From: Chitinophagaceae bacterium
GTDB lineage: Bacteria > Bacteroidota > Bacteroidia > Chitinophagales > Chitinophagaceae
Assembly (NCBI GenBank): GCA_017307735.1
Contig: JAFKGR010000003.1
Span: forward strand, 62,001 to 126,000
Length of the DNA: 64,000 nucleotides
Direction: 5' to 3'
Shown here: positions 41,696 to 49,836 of the stretch, in pieces
Layout: each line of letters begins with the position of its first letter
Position numbering within the stretch: the stretch's first letter is position 1
The notes under the pieces: model-generated
Databases searched by the model: none
The model's input: the letters and a program-made list of their open reading frames with translations, nothing else
What the model was told of the DNA's origin: nothing
Made by a program: the position numbers and the translations under genes

Positions 41696-44600
41696 ATGAA
41701 GATCAGTAAAGTTTATAAGGCGCTGCCAAATACTCTTAGCACAGGTTTCAGTTCTGAGAGATATGTCAAATTGGTAATGTCACATGCGATTCTTATTTCG
41801 TTTTTATCCCTGGATTTTTCAAAAGAAAGCCTGAATAAAGTATTGTTAAGAGATACACACGAATGTTCGGTACTTCTTAACCAGCCATTTACAAAATATT
41901 TTACCCTCCTGCAAAAAGGTTCCGGACAAATCGGAAAAAGTATTTTGAATGAAGATCCTGCTTCCTACTTTAGAAGTAAAGACAACGGGATGTGGAATTC
42001 TCCATCCAGTTGGGAAACATCTGATGACGGAACCACTAATTGGATTGAATCCGAGTCAATCCCCGGATCAGAAGCAAGTGAAATTGTAGTTCGCAATGGT
42101 CATACCATCACACTGAATGCTGCTACCTCGGCCAGGATGTTAAGAATAGAAGCCGGAGGGACACTTGATGGTGGAGGAAACACAAGCGGCTCCAGCGGAT
42201 ACCAATTGACAATTCATGATGATGGAACTCCGGCAAGTGATTTTGATATTCATGGCACTTTTATTCTTTATGGGCATGAGGTAGCCTTCAATAATACAAG
42301 TGCATCTGCAACCATTTATACAGGTGGACTGGTTAGAGTAGATAATAATATTCCAGCAAAAAAGAGTGATGAATTTGCAAAAAGTTGGCAGGTTAATTTT
42401 AATAACGGTGCAATTTTCCAATGGAATACAACGACAGCTTTCTCGACGAGTAATGCCATTTATTTTCCAAATGCAGGTGAAAATACAATTCCATACTTTG
42501 TAATAAGTAAGGAAGTCACAGTTGGCGGAGGAAGTAATACCACTATTAATGGTCTTACGATTATAAATGCAAATACAATTTTTCAGAGTGGGGGGAATAA
42601 AATTTTCAGAAACGGGATTGCAGGGAATGCAACTCTCACTCAAGATGGAGGAATTGATAATCCCGGAAATTTTCAGATAACAGGAAATAATGCAATTCTT
42701 GGCGGATCCAATCTCACTCTTAACCTGACTAATATCCTAAATCTTAATTCAAATACCCAGGTACCAATTGATTCAGTGGTTATCATTAATAAACAATCAG
42801 GGAATCGTACAAAAGGCAGCATTTCAAAAGGCAGTTCTGCAGTTTTCACTATCAATGGGACGGCTGATATGACAACAATAAATATGGATAACACCTCCGG
42901 ATCGGTTGATATAAATGGATATCTGAAAACAGCGGCTACCGATGGTTTAAAAGGTAGCTCTAACTCTACTGTTTCCGGTGGCAATGTCAATGTAAACACA
43001 GGAAGTACTGTGGAATATAACAGCAGCTCAGATCAAAAAATCACCAGTTCCACAACCTTATCTGGCACTTCCCCTTATTACAACCTGATTTTATCCGAAG
43101 GGGGCACTAAAACTCCGGGAAGTACAATATACCTTGATGTCAACGGTTCGCTGAAAATTACAGGGGCAACAACTATTGTGGACGCTACATCAAATAACAT
43201 CGGTCCTAATAATGCTATTAACTCAACAACCTTCACAATGGATGGAGGCCGGTTCAAAATGGGGACTCTCGGATTTACAGGATCAGGAACAATGCCTATC
43301 ATGAAAGGGGCTTTTAATTTAACTGGAGGAATTATAGAATTTGCCGGAGGGTCATCTTCAACAAGCCAGTCTATAAGGTCGGGAGCCGAATACCCATATT
43401 TTAATATAGAAGTCTCGGGACAAAATGTTTCAACTTCTGGTGGGAACATTAACCTGAAAAACGGAGGAAGTTTTATTGTAAAAAACGGAGGAAATTTTAC
43501 CATCAATATAAACAGCATAAATAGTGTGAATAATCCGGATATGGTTTTTGTAAAAGTTGAATCCGGCGGCACATTCAATAGCGGCAATAAAGGTGGTTTC
43601 AATGGAAAATCACTCTCATCAATTGGCGATACTACCTCCTCGATACACGTTAATATTACAGACATCCGTCTTGAAAGTGGAAGCACTATTAATTATTCAA
43701 GAAACAACAGCCTCGCCGGCGATGGCAGCCAGCCCATCACGACAGGAAACTTCACCTATCAAAACCTGACACTCTCCGGCACAGGAAATAAAATCGCACC
43801 TTTCAAAACCAACCTGCCCATCAATGGTGACTTCACGGTTATGGGCGCTGCACAATTTGTACACGACAGCAGCACCGTAACTTTTATTAATGCAACTGCT
43901 GCACAAAACATCAATGCATCAGGCGTTACCTATCCTCCGGTATTTTACAATCTGAGCAACCAAAATACTCAGGGACTTAACATCAATGACAAAATATCCG
44001 TAAAGAGTGAGTTAACCCTCGGTAATTCTTCAAAACTAAATCTTTCGGATAGCATCCGTTTGATCAGTGATAATGATCAGACTGCTTCTGTTGCTCCGGT
44101 TCCAGAAGGAACCAACGCTGCAATCATTAACTACCTACCCAAAGGCGCTTTCGTGGTTGAGCGATACATCCCAAATCATCCCAAAGCATGGCAATTGCTG
44201 AGTGTGCCAACAAAAGGAAGCACTATCAAACAATCGTGGCAAAACAATCAGGCTAATACACCGGGAAGAGGAATAAATATTACCGGCCCTTTCACAGACT
44301 GGGAAGCCAGGGGATTTGATAAATATTCTCCGGCGCCTTCCATGAAAACTTATGACCCTGCCACAAATTCTTATACCGGAATTCCAAACACTACCATGCC
44401 TATTGAAAACCCCAACGGTTATTTTGTATTTGTACGTGGCGACAGAAGCGCGAACGACATCAATAGCTCTCCCACTGAAGTGACACTGCAAACATCAGGG
44501 ATGATTTATGCACCTACCCCATCTTCAGCAGCACCGCCACAGATAATTGTACAGGCCGGAAAATATGCCATGATTGGAAATCCGTATGCATCTTCCATTA

Positions 44601-45880
44601 GCTTCAGCAATCTCAATCTTTCAAATAATTTCACGACAACTTATTACATCTGGGATCCGCGACTGACCAATCCGGATCAGGGTTCGGCCTACGGATTAGG
44701 GGCTTATAAAACCGTCAGCGGCGGAGCGGTTGTTCCCGGACAAGAAGATGATGGCGGCGATGTCATTCAATCGGGCCAGGCTTTTTTTGTTTATAATCCT
44801 GAAACAATTGACCAGACTGTTACATTCTCTGAACAAGCCAAAACATCCGCAAGCCAATCTGTTTTCAGGACTCATACCAATATCCCCAAAGCGTCAGCAT
44901 TCATCCGCACCAACCTATTTATAAAAGGAAATAACAGCGAAAATATTTTGATAGATGGAAACCTGGAACTTTTCGGGAAATCATTTTCAAATCAGATTGA
45001 TAAATACGACGCGAAGAAAATGATGAACAGTTCAGGAAATATTGCTATTCATTCATCGGAATATCCTTTGGCTATTGAACGCAGGATGCCGCCTTCTGAA
45101 AATGACACCACATTCTTTGAACTAACCGGAATAACCAAACAAAATTACGTTCTGGAAATTTCAACTTCCGGAATGAAGGAAATGGATATAAATACTTTCC
45201 TGCATGATATCTATCTGAACAACATTACACTTCTTCAACAAGATAAATCTCAAATTAATTTTTCAGTTAATGGTGACAAAAATTCTTATGCGATCAACAG
45301 ATTTTTCATTACGTACAAAGCCATTCCAAAACCATTTTTATTCAGCAATGAATCAGCCACTCCGCAAAATGAATCTGTTCTGTTGAGTTGGGAAGTCAAT
45401 AACCAAAATAACGTTATTGGTTATGCGGTGGAGAAAGGAAGAGATACACTGAACTTTAGAAATCTTGTAAACATCACTCCGGTTGCCGGAGCAAATGCTT
45501 CATATCAATGGAGAGACTATCCTCAAAATGCAGGTTGGAATTATTACAGGTTTGCAGCCCGTCTTTCAGATAGCTCAATCATTTTATCAAAAATTATAAA
45601 AGCTGATGTTAGTTTCAAAAATCCTTCGATCCTCTTTTATCCGAATCCGGTAACAAAAAATAACCTGAGATTAAAGTTGACACGAATGAAAGAAGGCAAA
45701 TACCAGATTCGATTGATCCAGCAGGATGGAAAATATGTTTATTCACAAGCGATTCACCACAATGTACATTCAAACGAATATAAACTTCATTTGCCCCATT
45801 TGGCTCCGGGTATTTATCAGGCTGAGGTCGTTTTGCCCGACGGAAGAAAAGAAATTGAACAAATATTTATAAAAAAATAA
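41696..45880 (+). CDS. Large T9SS-secreted adhesin-like protein
   Basis: This 1394-residue surface protein ends with a T9SS type A sorting domain (from about residue 1310: ILFYPNPVTKNNLRL ... LHLPHLAPGIYQAEVVLPDGRKEIEQIFIKK). The middle (about 130-850) is a Gly/Asn/Ser/Thr-rich beta-helix-like region with many VxxGGxxN and SGG units. The region around 100-140 (GMWNSPSSWETSDDGTTNW) is a typical start of such passengers. The N-terminus is odd: about 25 polar residues precede the hydrophobic stretch VMSHAILISFLSL, so the signal peptide is long or the start is at an internal ATG (41777). It probably mediates adhesion or gliding; no enzymatic motif is seen. No T9SS machinery genes are in the window. 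Confidence 0.8.
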   Translation: MKISKVYKALPNTLSTGFSSERYVKLVMSHAILISFLSLDFSKESLNKVLLRDTHECSVLLNQPFTKYFTLLQKGSGQIGKSILNEDPASYFRSKDNGMWNSPSSWETSDDGTTNWIESESIPGSEASEIVVRNGHTITLNAATSARMLRIEAGGTLDGGGNTSGSSGYQLTIHDDGTPASDFDIHGTFILYGHEVAFNNTSASATIYTGGLVRVDNNIPAKKSDEFAKSWQVNFNNGAIFQWNTTTAFSTSNAIYFPNAGENTIPYFVISKEVTVGGGSNTTINGLTIINANTIFQSGGNKIFRNGIAGNATLTQDGGIDNPGNFQITGNNAILGGSNLTLNLTNILNLNSNTQVPIDSVVIINKQSGNRTKGSISKGSSAVFTINGTADMTTINMDNTSGSVDINGYLKTAATDGLKGSSNSTVSGGNVNVNTGSTVEYNSSSDQKITSSTTLSGTSPYYNLILSEGGTKTPGSTIYLDVNGSLKITGATTIVDATSNNIGPNNAINSTTFTMDGGRFKMGTLGFTGSGTMPIMKGAFNLTGGIIEFAGGSSSTSQSIRSGAEYPYFNIEVSGQNVSTSGGNINLKNGGSFIVKNGGNFTININSINSVNNPDMVFVKVESGGTFNSGNKGGFNGKSLSSIGDTTSSIHVNITDIRLESGSTINYSRNNSLAGDGSQPITTGNFTYQNLTLSGTGNKIAPFKTNLPINGDFTVMGAAQFVHDSSTVTFINATAAQNINASGVTYPPVFYNLSNQNTQGLNINDKISVKSELTLGNSSKLNLSDSIRLISDNDQTASVAPVPEGTNAAIINYLPKGAFVVERYIPNHPKAWQLLSVPTKGSTIKQSWQNNQANTPGRGINITGPFTDWEARGFDKYSPAPSMKTYDPATNSYTGIPNTTMPIENPNGYFVFVRGDRSANDINSSPTEVTLQTSGMIYAPTPSSAAPPQIIVQAGKYAMIGNPYASSISFSNLNLSNNFTTTYYIWDPRLTNPDQGSAYGLGAYKTVSGGAVVPGQEDDGGDVIQSGQAFFVYNPETIDQTVTFSEQAKTSASQSVFRTHTNIPKASAFIRTNLFIKGNNSENILIDGNLELFGKSFSNQIDKYDAKKMMNSSGNIAIHSSEYPLAIERRMPPSENDTTFFELTGITKQNYVLEISTSGMKEMDINTFLHDIYLNNITLLQQDKSQINFSVNGDKNSYAINRFFITYKAIPKPFLFSNESATPQNESVLLSWEVNNQNNVIGYAVEKGRDTLNFRNLVNITPVAGANASYQWRDYPQNAGWNYYRFAARLSDSSIILSKIIKADVSFKNPSILFYPNPVTKNNLRLKLTRMKEGKYQIRLIQQDGKYVYSQAIHHNVHSNEYKLHLPHLAPGIYQAEVVLPDGRKEIEQIFIKK

Positions 45881-46090: not shown

Positions 46091-46098
46091 TATATTTG
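46091..46098 (+). promoter_or_regulatory. -7 box of the amidotransferase cluster (TATATTTG)
   Basis: A perfect TAnnTTTG match ending 4 bases before the ATG, so the first mRNA of the cluster is probably leaderless. No -33 TTTG is visible. Confidence 0.5.
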
Positions 46099-46102
46099 TA
46101 GA

Positions 46103-46951
46103 ATGATTTTGAATGAAAAACCACAATTAAATATTGCAATTCTCGATTTGTATAATGGGGCAGTCAATCAGGGTATGCGGGGATTGAAAGAGATAATCAA
46201 CAACTTCGGAATAAAAAAAGGATTACAAATAAAATTATCCATATTTGATGTACGTCAAAAAAGTGAATTACCGGATCTGAATTTTGATCTTTATTTAAGC
46301 ACCGGCGGACCGGGCAGTCCGATAGAAAGCGAAGGAGAAAAATGGGATACCCTCTATTTTCAATGGATCCGCGATATTGAAGCATATAATCATTCACCGG
46401 AGAATATTCAGAAACGACCGGTGTTTTTTATTTGTCACAGTTTCCAATTGGCTTGCCGCTATTTCAAAATCGGGAAGCTCACCAAACGGAAATCCAATTC
46501 CTTCGGGGTATTTCCGGTTCACATGCTTGAAGACGGGGCTCACGAACCGGTATTCAATGGATTGAAAAATCCTTTTTATGCCATGGACAGCCGCGATTAC
46601 CAGGTGATAGAACCGGATTATCAAAGGATACATGAATTAGGTTCTAAAATTCTTGCTATCGAAAAAAAACGACCGCATGTTCCTTTGCAAAGAGCAATGA
46701 TGGCAGTTCGTTTTACTGATCAGTTTATCGGAACTCAATTTCATCCTGAGGCCGATCCTGAAGGGATGCTTAAATGGCTCAACAATCCCGAAAAAAAAGA
46801 ATCTATCATCGAAAATCACGGATTTGAAAAATGGAAGAGCATGATAGAACAATTGCACGATCCGGATAAAATAAGAATGACACATGCACATGTGCTTCCC
46901 AATTTTCTGCAACTTGCATTGAATAATTGCCTGACGGCTACGGAAGTTTAA
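46103..46951 (+). CDS. Class I glutamine amidotransferase-like protein
   Basis: This 282-residue protein has a class I (triad) glutamine amidotransferase domain, which hydrolyses glutamine and channels ammonia to a partner. The triad is present: C111 in FFICHSFQLAC, H214 and E216 in GTQFHPEAD. The nucleophile loop is unusual because the Gly of the family pattern GxCxGxQ is Ser here. STGGPGSP near residue 66 corresponds to the GGPxS strand. No synthetase domain is fused, so a separate acceptor enzyme is needed. The gene lies 54 bases before the ATP-grasp-like gene, its likely partner. It is annotated in some genomes as GMP synthase-like, but it lacks the PPase domain. Confidence 0.85.
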   Translation: MILNEKPQLNIAILDLYNGAVNQGMRGLKEIINNFGIKKGLQIKLSIFDVRQKSELPDLNFDLYLSTGGPGSPIESEGEKWDTLYFQWIRDIEAYNHSPENIQKRPVFFICHSFQLACRYFKIGKLTKRKSNSFGVFPVHMLEDGAHEPVFNGLKNPFYAMDSRDYQVIEPDYQRIHELGSKILAIEKKRPHVPLQRAMMAVRFTDQFIGTQFHPEADPEGMLKWLNNPEKKESIIENHGFEKWKSMIEQLHDPDKIRMTHAHVLPNFLQLALNNCLTATEV

Positions 46952-47005
46952 AAAATCCGGCGTTACTGAAAATACATTAATTTCCAAGACTACAAATACG
47001 ATATC

Positions 47006-48199
47006 ATGATCCCCGATTTAAGAGAAGCCTTCAATCGCAGCTTCACTGAAAAAAAATATCACGAATTCCTCAATGACCTGGATAGTAAACATCCCGGAGC
47101 CATCCAATTCCGTGTGGCTGAAACGCCGGTCTTTGTTCCAAAATCTTTTGAAAAAAAAATTTTGGATGCCTGTGAAAGTATTGTAGATATTATACTTGAC
47201 AGCGATTTCAAAGGATTGACCGAAAGAGCAATTCCTGAAAAAGAAAGAGTGCCGGGTGATGATGGGCATCCGGAATTTATCGCTTTCGATTTTGGACTTT
47301 GCCTCAATGAAAACGGGCAGTATGAACCCCAGTTGATCGAGATGCAGGGATTCCCAACGCTATTCGGATTTCAGGTTTATTATCCGGAAGTAATCAGAAA
47401 ACATTTCAATATTCCTGAAAATTTTTCTCAATATCTCAACGGATACAACAAAAAAACTTATACCGAACTTCTAAAGAGGATTGTCATTGATGATCACGCT
47501 CCCGAAAATGTCATTCTTCTGGAAGTGAAACCACATGAGCAAAAAACAAAAATCGATTTCTATAGCACTCAGGATTTGCTTGGGATTCCAATTGTGGGAT
47601 TGGAAGAATTGAAAAAGGAAGGAAGGAAACTTTTTTATGAAAAAAACGGTAAACGAATTCCGGTAGAAAGAATTTACAACCGGATTATTTTCGATGATTT
47701 CAATCACATTAAAGATTCATTGGGAGAGGTTGTGGATATCACCCAGCCATTGGATGTTGAATGGGTACCACATCCCAACTGGTTTTACAGAATCAGCAAG
47801 TTTACTTTGCCGTATATCAATCACCCTTATGTGCCGGAAACATTTTTTTTAAACGAGGTTTCTGAAATTCCCGCCAATCTCGATCAATATGTTTTAAAAC
47901 CCCTTTTCAGTTTTGCCGGTCAGGGGGTAATCATTGACGTAAAACTTAGTGATATTCAAAAAATAAAAGATCCCGAACACTGGATTCTACAGAAAAAAGT
48001 GCATTATGCAGAAGCCATCAAAACGCCGGATGAGCCGGTAAAAGCGGAAATCAGGATCTTTTATTTCTGGGAAAAAAATAAAAAGAGGCCGGTGGCGGTT
48101 TGTAATCTGGCAAGGCTGAGCAAAGGAAAAATGATAGGCGTTCGCTACAATGCCGATAAAGACTGGGTTGGCGGATCTGTTGTCTTTTTTGAACAATAG
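47006..48199 (+). CDS. Uncharacterised protein with circularly permuted ATP-grasp-like signatures
   Basis: This 397-residue protein matches no family I can name with certainty. The N-terminal half has FDFGLCLNENGQYEPQLIEMQGFPTLFGFQ (about 94-123), resembling the metal-binding E-x-N/Q region of permuted ATP-grasp enzymes. The C-terminal part has YVLKPLFSFAGQGVIID (about 295-311), which looks like the ATP-binding Lys and Gly loop, and VKAEIRIFYFW (345-355). This order, metal site before Gly loop, is the permuted arrangement. If it is an ATP-grasp ligase, it would activate a carboxylate for amide formation, with ammonia from the adjacent amidotransferase. There is no signal peptide. The assignment is inference from motifs. 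Confidence 0.6.
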   Translation: MIPDLREAFNRSFTEKKYHEFLNDLDSKHPGAIQFRVAETPVFVPKSFEKKILDACESIVDIILDSDFKGLTERAIPEKERVPGDDGHPEFIAFDFGLCLNENGQYEPQLIEMQGFPTLFGFQVYYPEVIRKHFNIPENFSQYLNGYNKKTYTELLKRIVIDDHAPENVILLEVKPHEQKTKIDFYSTQDLLGIPIVGLEELKKEGRKLFYEKNGKRIPVERIYNRIIFDDFNHIKDSLGEVVDITQPLDVEWVPHPNWFYRISKFTLPYINHPYVPETFFLNEVSEIPANLDQYVLKPLFSFAGQGVIIDVKLSDIQKIKDPEHWILQKKVHYAEAIKTPDEPVKAEIRIFYFWEKNKKRPVAVCNLARLSKGKMIGVRYNADKDWVGGSVVFFEQ

Positions 48200-48307
48200 T
48201 TTTAAAAACACTTTCTTAGGTCCGGAGAAATATTATCCAAAACATTTTTGGGGTAAAATTGTCATTATTTGTGACTCTTAAAAGTGATATATCGTTTCTG
48301 CAAATTG

Positions 48308-48315
48308 TACTTTTG
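48308..48315 (+). promoter_or_regulatory. Possible internal -7 box before the MOCOS-like gene (TACTTTTG)
   Basis: A perfect TAnnTTTG match in the 162-base gap after the ATP-grasp-like gene, about 47 bases before the ATG. It could give extra expression of the third gene. Confidence 0.4.
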
Positions 48316-48361
48316 CAATCAGAAAGTAGGAATATCGCAGATATCATTAAAACACATTTCT

Positions 48362-49771
48362 ATGTCAAACCAAATCTTAGAAAAAGAAATCCCGGAGACA
48401 AAGGCAATTTCACTTTCCGATGACGCTTTTTTTTCAGAATTAAGAAAAAAAGAATATTCCAGAATTGACAAAAATTCTGAAGTATATCTGGACTTTACCG
48501 GAGGGAACATCTACCCTGAGTCTCTTATAAAAAAACACCACGATTTTCTGCTGAAAAATGTTTTTGGAAATCCTCATTCTATAAACCCGACTTCCAAAAG
48601 ATCATCCGAATTCATTGCTGAAACCCGCCAGAAGGTTCTGGATTTCTTTAATGCAAAAGATTATATCTGCGTATTTACACAGAATGCAACAAACGCTTTG
48701 CGCATTGTCGGAGAAAGCTATCCTTTCAATGAAAACACAGAATACATTTTACTTTCAGACAATCATAATTCAGTAAATGGCATCCGGGAATTCTGTAAAA
48801 ACAAAGGAGGTGCCGTAACTTATGTCCCGGTACAATACCACGATTTGCAAATCAATGAACCTCTTTTAAAAAAACTCCTCACTGAACATTCAAAAAATAA
48901 AAAGGTACTGTTTTCCTTTCCTGCCCAATCCAATGTTACCGGTGTCAAGCACGATTTGAAATGGGTGGCTTATGCAAAAAACCTGGGTTGCGATGTAATT
49001 CTGGATGCGGCTGCATTTGTACCCACTTCACGGTTGGACCTTTCAGAAATTCAACCGGATTTCATTCCCATTTCTTTCTATAAAATTTTTGGATACCCGA
49101 CAGGATTGGGATGCCTGCTTATCCACAAAGATTCATTTCAGGAATTAAAGAAACCGTGGTTTGCCGGCGGAACCGTTTCGCTTGTATCTGTCAATGCACA
49201 AGACCATTTCCTTACAAACACACATGAACGTTTTGAAGATGGCACCCTCAATTATCTGGATATTCCCGCCATTAAAAACGGGTTGGAATTCATTGAGTCT
49301 ATTGGCATGGATAAGATTTCAAAAAGGGTACACACTATTGTGGAATTGCTGGCGCATAAACTTTCAAAGATGACACATAGCAACGGGAAACCGCTTTTGA
49401 AAATATTCGGACCCGAAGATTTTAGCAAACGGGGAGGGAATATGATCATGAGCTTTTATGATATTAACGGAAATACTTTCCAGACAGAATTAATTGAAGA
49501 AAGGGCCAGCCTCAAAAATATTTCAATACGTACCGGGTGTTTTTGCAATCCGGGTGTGGACGAAATAAATAGTTGTATCACCACCGAAGAATTGTCCGGA
49601 TATTTCACAAGCCATAGCGACGGAAATTATCATGACATGGTTTCTTTCATTGGCAAAATGAGAGGATCGGTTCGGGTTTCAGTTGGGTTTATAACCAATG
49701 AAAATGATATTGAAAAATTTTGCGGTTTCGTATCCGAATTCAAAGACAAGGATGCCTCCGAATTTAACTGA
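48362..49771 (+). CDS. MOCOS-like class V aminotransferase/sulfurtransferase
   Basis: This 469-residue PLP enzyme resembles the N-terminal domain of molybdenum cofactor sulfurase (MOCOS/ABA3). Seen are FGNPHSINPTSKRSSEFI (69-84), VFTQNATNALRIVGESYPF (104-122), D215 in LDAAAFV, and the PLP lysine K241 in ISFYKIFGYPTGLG. RTGCFCNPG (390-398) follows, where MOCOS carries its persulfide cysteine (C393/C395), and GSVRVSVGFITNENDI comes near the end. The MOSC domain of MOCOS is missing and no molybdoenzyme is nearby. It may therefore be a cysteine desulfurase/lyase acting with the two upstream genes. I chose the ATG of MSNQILEK; an earlier in-frame start adds 26 unlikely residues. A terminator follows. 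Confidence 0.85.
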   Translation: MSNQILEKEIPETKAISLSDDAFFSELRKKEYSRIDKNSEVYLDFTGGNIYPESLIKKHHDFLLKNVFGNPHSINPTSKRSSEFIAETRQKVLDFFNAKDYICVFTQNATNALRIVGESYPFNENTEYILLSDNHNSVNGIREFCKNKGGAVTYVPVQYHDLQINEPLLKKLLTEHSKNKKVLFSFPAQSNVTGVKHDLKWVAYAKNLGCDVILDAAAFVPTSRLDLSEIQPDFIPISFYKIFGYPTGLGCLLIHKDSFQELKKPWFAGGTVSLVSVNAQDHFLTNTHERFEDGTLNYLDIPAIKNGLEFIESIGMDKISKRVHTIVELLAHKLSKMTHSNGKPLLKIFGPEDFSKRGGNMIMSFYDINGNTFQTELIEERASLKNISIRTGCFCNPGVDEINSCITTEELSGYFTSHSDGNYHDMVSFIGKMRGSVRVSVGFITNENDIEKFCGFVSEFKDKDASEFN

Positions 49772-49805: not shown

Positions 49806-49836
49806 AAAAAACCCGGGACGAAGCCCGGGCTTTTTC
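49806..49836. terminator. Bidirectional terminator between the cluster and the metalloprotease
   Basis: CCCGGG (49812-49817) pairs with CCCGGG (49824-49829) around ACGAAG, with a T-run on both strands (49831-49835 on plus; 49811-49806 on minus). It ends the three-gene cluster and the convergent metalloprotease gene. Confidence 0.88.

Follow-up and report, generated by a model that had tools for sequence, protein, structure and literature searches.

The window described here is a stretch of 64,000 nucleotides from a Chitinophagaceae bacterium (contig JAFKGR010000003.1, positions 62,001 to 126,000), and the subject of this report is a pair of genes on its plus strand which are referred to as GAT and MID. 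GAT (46103–46951) encodes a GATase of 282 amino acids, a stand-alone Cys-His-Glu enzyme of the class I glutamine amidotransferase type as judged from its match to PF00117, its triad, and its predicted fold. After a gap of 54 bases it is followed by MID (47006–48199), the middle gene of three, whose product of 397 amino acids is predicted from its fold and aligned residues to be a circularly permuted ATP-grasp ligase with the GspS/YgiC/glutathione synthetase fold. The third gene (48362–49771, plus strand) encodes a MOCOS-like class V enzyme of the pyridoxal phosphate (PLP) dependent type and is called the PLP gene. A match to the promoter pattern TAnnTTTG (-7 type) is found at 46091–46098 on the plus strand, four bases 5' of the GAT start codon, and a hairpin scan located a terminator-like GC hairpin with a T tail at 49812–49829 (plus strand), between the PLP gene and a converging gene. 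The reading frames of GAT and MID, a promoter-like motif ahead of the block and a terminator-like site behind it had all been noted in a preliminary description of this DNA and were found again.

GAT and MID are a genuine and widely conserved pair, as that description had proposed for the amidotransferase and the permuted ATP-grasp protein. Of 61 related genomes, 35 have a MID orthologue, and orthologues also turned up in hundreds of named contigs; the best 80 of these come mostly from Chitinophagaceae and other Bacteroidota. Adjacency was counted in 101 loci with enough upstream DNA and in 96 with enough downstream DNA, some loci being the same contig obtained twice. GAT adjoined MID on its upstream side in 84 of the 101 loci, 82 times on the same strand, and among cases of non-adjacency seven of seven had it elsewhere in the same genome. 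Four genomes lacking MID likewise lacked GAT. No plasmid-borne copies of MID or of its partner DDL, which is introduced below, were found in PLSDB.

The assignment of GAT to the class I amidotransferases rests on a PF00117 score of 39.2 bits (cut-off 22.8) and on the triad C111, H214, and E216 already pointed out for this protein, which is invariant in 26 orthologues. A structural model with a predicted local distance difference test (pLDDT) score of 93 matched TM1158, DnfC, gamma-glutamyl peptidase 1 (GGP1), and MetA with Z scores of 21 to 23. TM1158, DnfC, and GGP1 thus resemble GAT, with its Cys-His-Glu triad, in fold, but they are only 12–18% identical to it and have other partners. Both a glutaminase and a gamma-glutamyl hydrolase would be compatible with the modelled fold, which cannot decide between them.

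By sequence MID yields a marginal match to PF14403 (E 0.003, under the gathering score), and among the curated models searched PF14403 and PF04174 appeared below threshold and no NCBIfam model matched; it is therefore not a plain member of any of these families. Its profile aligns with YgiC at the KP-FS--G--V ATP loop (E 0.3, weak when taken alone). The preliminary description had seen permuted ATP-grasp signatures in this protein and had suggested comparing a predicted structure with ATP-grasp folds, and it is this comparison which bore the assignment out. An AlphaFold2 model calculated with 22 orthologues had a pLDDT of 91 and matched solved ATP-grasp members over its whole length as a three-domain fold (Z 19–27 over 319–369 residues). 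The closest solved structure was YjfC (Z 26.8, 343 residues, root-mean-square deviation 3.5), further matches being YgiC, GspS, eukaryotic glutathione synthetases, and Cp1B, and the best Foldseek match was 3n6x. On the strength of the model MID is an ATP-grasp ligase of the GspS/YgiC/glutathione synthetase fold. With YgiC, YjfC, and GspS of E. coli it shares this fold (Z 25–27 over 328–349 residues), the ATP loop, and the Mg/ATP residues D95, E112, and K298, the latter being the A-loop lysine, in a joint alignment at 16% identity. It differs from them in being only 12–16% identical, in lacking an arginine, in having glutamine in place of asparagine, and in its genomic partners. The arginine in question lies two residues before the Mg-binding aspartate in GspS, YgiC/YjfC, and Cp1B; in the same alignment, at 16% identity, the MID orthologues have alanine, glutamine, threonine, or valine at this position, and Q114 where the others have the asparagine of an E-x-N motif. 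MID is thus a distant relative of the GspS/YgiC ligases with an altered site and not a catalogued member of that group.

RefSeq lists both YgiC and YjfC as peptide-spermidine ligases, and experimental work on ligases of this type is cited in PMC12568646. The same paper describes Cp1B, a glutathione synthetase-like ATP-grasp ligase of fungal E-64 biosynthesis, a small-molecule pathway free of non-ribosomal peptide synthetases. Residues R139, D141, E163, and N165 of Cp1B, which match positions of the MID/YgiC site, are required for its full activity (PMC12568646). Cp1B (PDB 9cjn) has the same fold as MID (Z 22.6); it differs in being fungal, in its catalytic R139, which apparently has no counterpart in MID, and in that no GATase partner has been reported for it.

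Clustering of the open reading frames around MID brought out recurrent neighbour families which had been missing from the preliminary description: a RimK-like ATP-grasp protein (DDL), a GCS2 ligase, and PF00756 esterases. DDL, GCS2, GAT, and MID were found together in one retrieved stretch in 18 loci. The order DDL-GCS2-GAT-MID occurs in loci from many other Bacteroidota families (L193, L194, L195, L198, L204–L207, L224, and L225), often with an esterase ahead of DDL and a second esterase divergent from the first, so that the full operon elsewhere in Bacteroidota reads esterase-DDL-GCS2-GAT-MID. In the genome of the window DDL, GCS2, and an esterase are clustered on contig 32 (about 76.6–79.6 kb). 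The GCS2 partner reached 510.9 bits with the NCBIfam model PRK13515 (cut-off 371), a carboxylate-amine ligase of the YbdK family, and by sequence may carry out a reaction of this kind within the operon. DDL gave no Pfam match; its profile matches D-Ala-D-Ala ligase and biotin carboxylase at E 4e-4, and one member weakly matches TIGR00768 of the RimK family (E 2.4e-5).

Several variations were seen around this operon. DDL proteins at L195:10005-11303, L193:9735-10787, and L043:3908-5005 have long, histone-like C-terminal tails rich in lysine, alanine, and proline; the tail in L195 exceeds 100 residues. Such tails could serve in nucleic acid binding or as a target of ligation. A gene of the M29 aminopeptidase type lies in the GAT slot between GCS2 and MID at L196:5285-6304 and also in L197, L200, and L208. 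In lineages without GAT, DDL lies beside a gene which by eye resembles histidine/aromatic ammonia-lyases (L238:7650-9185, L240:4542-6119, L241:4401-5906). A third ATP-grasp protein (PF13535, about 400 amino acids) stands beside the operon in several families (L048:5375-6577, L195:5420-6619, L230:11136-12314), and in several lineages far apart from one another the gene immediately 5' of MID or GAT belongs to the Amidohydro_3 family (L217:7931-9388 and loci such as L060).

The distribution of the four genes was followed in two samples. Among the 61 relatives all four were present in 28, none in 23, and a mixture in ten, half of which were genomes less than 90% complete. In 296 genomes across the phylum MID was found in 95, DDL in 110, and GAT in 71; MID and DDL were shared by 91 genomes (Fisher p 2e-51, with relatedness ignored), and 70 of the 71 GAT genomes had DDL. 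Every one of these 71 genomes also encoded a permuted ATP-grasp protein, which was MID in 56 cases. In the remaining 15 it was another permuted ATP-grasp protein, some 455 residues long (for example L231:6883-8256) and normally located between DDL and GAT; GCS2 is missing from eight of these genomes. This replacement was absent from 13 other genomes tested, and in the genomes tested it and MID were mutually exclusive. Its profile is CP_ATPgrasp_2-like and matches 3n6x, a putative glutathionylspermidine synthase, at E 1e-8; a profile comparison with MID gave a weak link only (E 0.014, probability 3%). As each of the two matches structures of the 3n6x type they share a fold class, and this looks like the replacement of one ligase by another of the same class. 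The pattern as a whole implies a core of DDL and a permuted ATP-grasp ligase, with GCS2 usually accompanying MID and with GAT as an optional component tied to the permuted ATP-grasp protein.

The explanation which fits best, and which is considered probable, is that GAT and MID are two genes of a non-ribosomal pathway forming amides or peptides, encoded in full by the esterase-DDL-GCS2-GAT-MID operon, with MID as a ligase and GAT as its likely ammonia donor. What has been observed of it is the conservation of the pair, the predicted folds, the retention of catalytic residues, and the joint occurrence with DDL and GCS2. In such a pathway DDL and GCS2 would assemble a short peptide or isopeptide, and MID would phosphorylate its carboxylate with ATP to an acyl phosphate and then join an amine to it. 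GAT would hydrolyse glutamine or a gamma-glutamyl amide, and its ammonia, where the enzyme is present, would most likely go to MID and yield a terminal amide. Esterases of PF00756 might act on the product or its precursors, as might aminopeptidases in some lineages. Ammonia from GAT is preferred as the amine used by MID because it is a permuted ATP-grasp protein, and not GCS2, that GAT follows in all 71 genomes, and because GAT usually adjoins the permuted ligase in both arrangements.

Several findings weigh against this explanation. GAT is absent from 39 of the 95 MID genomes (GCS2 was present in 31 of 32 such genomes tested), and the M29-type gene takes the place of GAT in four loci, so that MID does not need GAT; a direct supply of MID by GAT is therefore possible but not obligatory. 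The absence of the catalytic arginine found in GspS, YgiC/YjfC, and Cp1B means that the chemistry of MID may differ from theirs. The genomes surveyed are not mutually independent. With GGP1 among the structural neighbours of GAT, hydrolysis of a gamma-glutamyl peptide is nearly as plausible as donation of ammonia.

This last point leads to the strongest alternative, less probable than the pathway just outlined and still a serious contender, in which GAT is a gamma-glutamyl peptidase or amidase which removes glutamyl residues or reverses the bond made by the ligase, and MID ligates a polyamine or an amino acid and not ammonia. GGP1 of Arabidopsis, or in E. coli the amidase half of GspSA, would be a model for such clipping, which is nearly as likely as ammonia donation. 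GGP1 is among the best structural matches of GAT (Z 21–22). The folds nearest to that of MID are those of YgiC/YjfC, which are peptide-spermidine ligases, and of GspS, a ligase fused to an amidase. Enzymes of the GCS2 and RimK-like kinds typically attach or link glutamate, and the GCS2 and RimK-like DDL of the operon match these families. Genes for M29 and M42 peptidases and for an amidohydrolase turn up repeatedly within the operon or next to it, and ligases of GCS2 size have been described next to a GATase-like thiol peptidase (Iyer et al. 2008, PMC2588565). GAT, however, tracks the permuted ATP-grasp protein without exception, whereas GCS2 is missing from eight of the 15 GAT genomes without MID.

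An unlikely alternative is that the targets of the pair are proteins or a ribosomal peptide, which it would modify in the manner of RimK or the graspetides, and that no free small molecule is made. The weak RimK likeness of DDL (TIGR00768, E 2.4e-5) and the long lysine- and alanine-rich tails of several DDL proteins would suit this idea, but no recurring short precursor gene was seen among reading frames of at least 80 amino acids, the only ones called, and the folds nearest to MID are those of small-peptide ligases. Synthesis of the dipeptide-amide osmolyte N-acetylglutaminylglutamine amide (NAGGN) relies on AsnO, an amidotransferase of class II, and on a protein in which an acetyltransferase is fused to an ATP-grasp ligase, sometimes accompanied by an M42 peptidase. 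The combination of an amidotransferase, an ATP-grasp ligase, and at times an M42 peptidase is common to NAGGN synthesis and the present operon, but GAT is of class I (PF00117) and no acetyltransferase/ATP-grasp fusion was seen here; as the NAGGN system uses a class II enzyme it was ruled out as the identity of this one. A defence system was likewise rejected, no PADLOC match being found for GAT, MID, GCS2, DDL, or the esterase.

That all three genes form a single operon directing the synthesis of a metabolite with a thio or amide group, with the PLP enzyme as sulfur source, as first proposed, is highly improbable: although they lie on the same strand with no terminator-like site in the gaps between them and the PLP enzyme does belong to the cysteine desulfurase/MOCOS class, the PLP gene was near MID in none of the 96 loci, its close orthologues (79–80%) are limited to three genus-mates, on contigs other than those of the pair, with a split copy (49–59%) in a fourth, and it has a promoter motif of its own. 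The trio is thus rejected as one system and the pair kept; adjacency across genomes held for GAT and MID and failed for the PLP gene, which is an uninvolved neighbour, and with it the idea of a thio-compound loses its basis. The enzyme itself is of the sulfurase type as described, with a class V PLP domain (PF00266, E 9e-44) and the motifs SFYKIFGYPTGLG and RTGCFCNPG, the latter with the cysteine; no C-terminal MOSC domain was matched in Pfam up to E 1, and in PADLOC only the generic desulfurase models SspA/DndA were hit. The second TAnnTTTG, at 48308–48315 on the plus strand, lies 5' of the PLP gene only and outside the pair, within the 162 bases between MID and the preferred start ATG 48362; since it falls inside the reading frame begun at GTG 48284, that start is unlikely. 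No further plus-strand copy occurs between 45 and 50 kb, which speaks against one promoter for all three genes, but as TAnnTTTG shows no enrichment over the window as a whole (46 found, 70 expected) the evidence for separate promoters is supportive at most. Ahead of the pair, at 41696–45880, lies a gene for a repetitive, secreted-looking protein of 1394 amino acids whose C-terminus looks, by eye, like a sorting signal for type IX secretion.

Predictions of amidoligase clusters of a broadly similar kind already exist, for example the GCS2-size ligases beside GATase-like thiol peptidases (PMC2588565). A literature search found no paper on the present gene set, and an earlier prediction is possible, most likely in the survey of ATP-grasp and GS-like amidoligases (Iyer et al. 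2009, Mol. BioSyst.). MID adds a family with an altered catalytic site to the GspS/YgiC fold. The broader proposal, put forward tentatively, is that of a phylum-wide pathway of Bacteroidota which leads to an undescribed peptide amide by means of two ATP-grasp ligases, GCS2, and an optional amidotransferase, and in which the permuted ligase has been replaced non-orthologously within its fold class in one group of lineages. This would be a multi-enzyme pathway with strictly kept catalytic residues in roughly one in three of the Bacteroidota genomes surveyed (MID in 95 of 296), and contiguous operons such as DDL-GCS2-GAT-MID offer a direct route to its product by heterologous expression and metabolomics. 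If the proposal is true, the peptide amide would have a reach like that of a compatible solute or a low-molecular-weight thiol.

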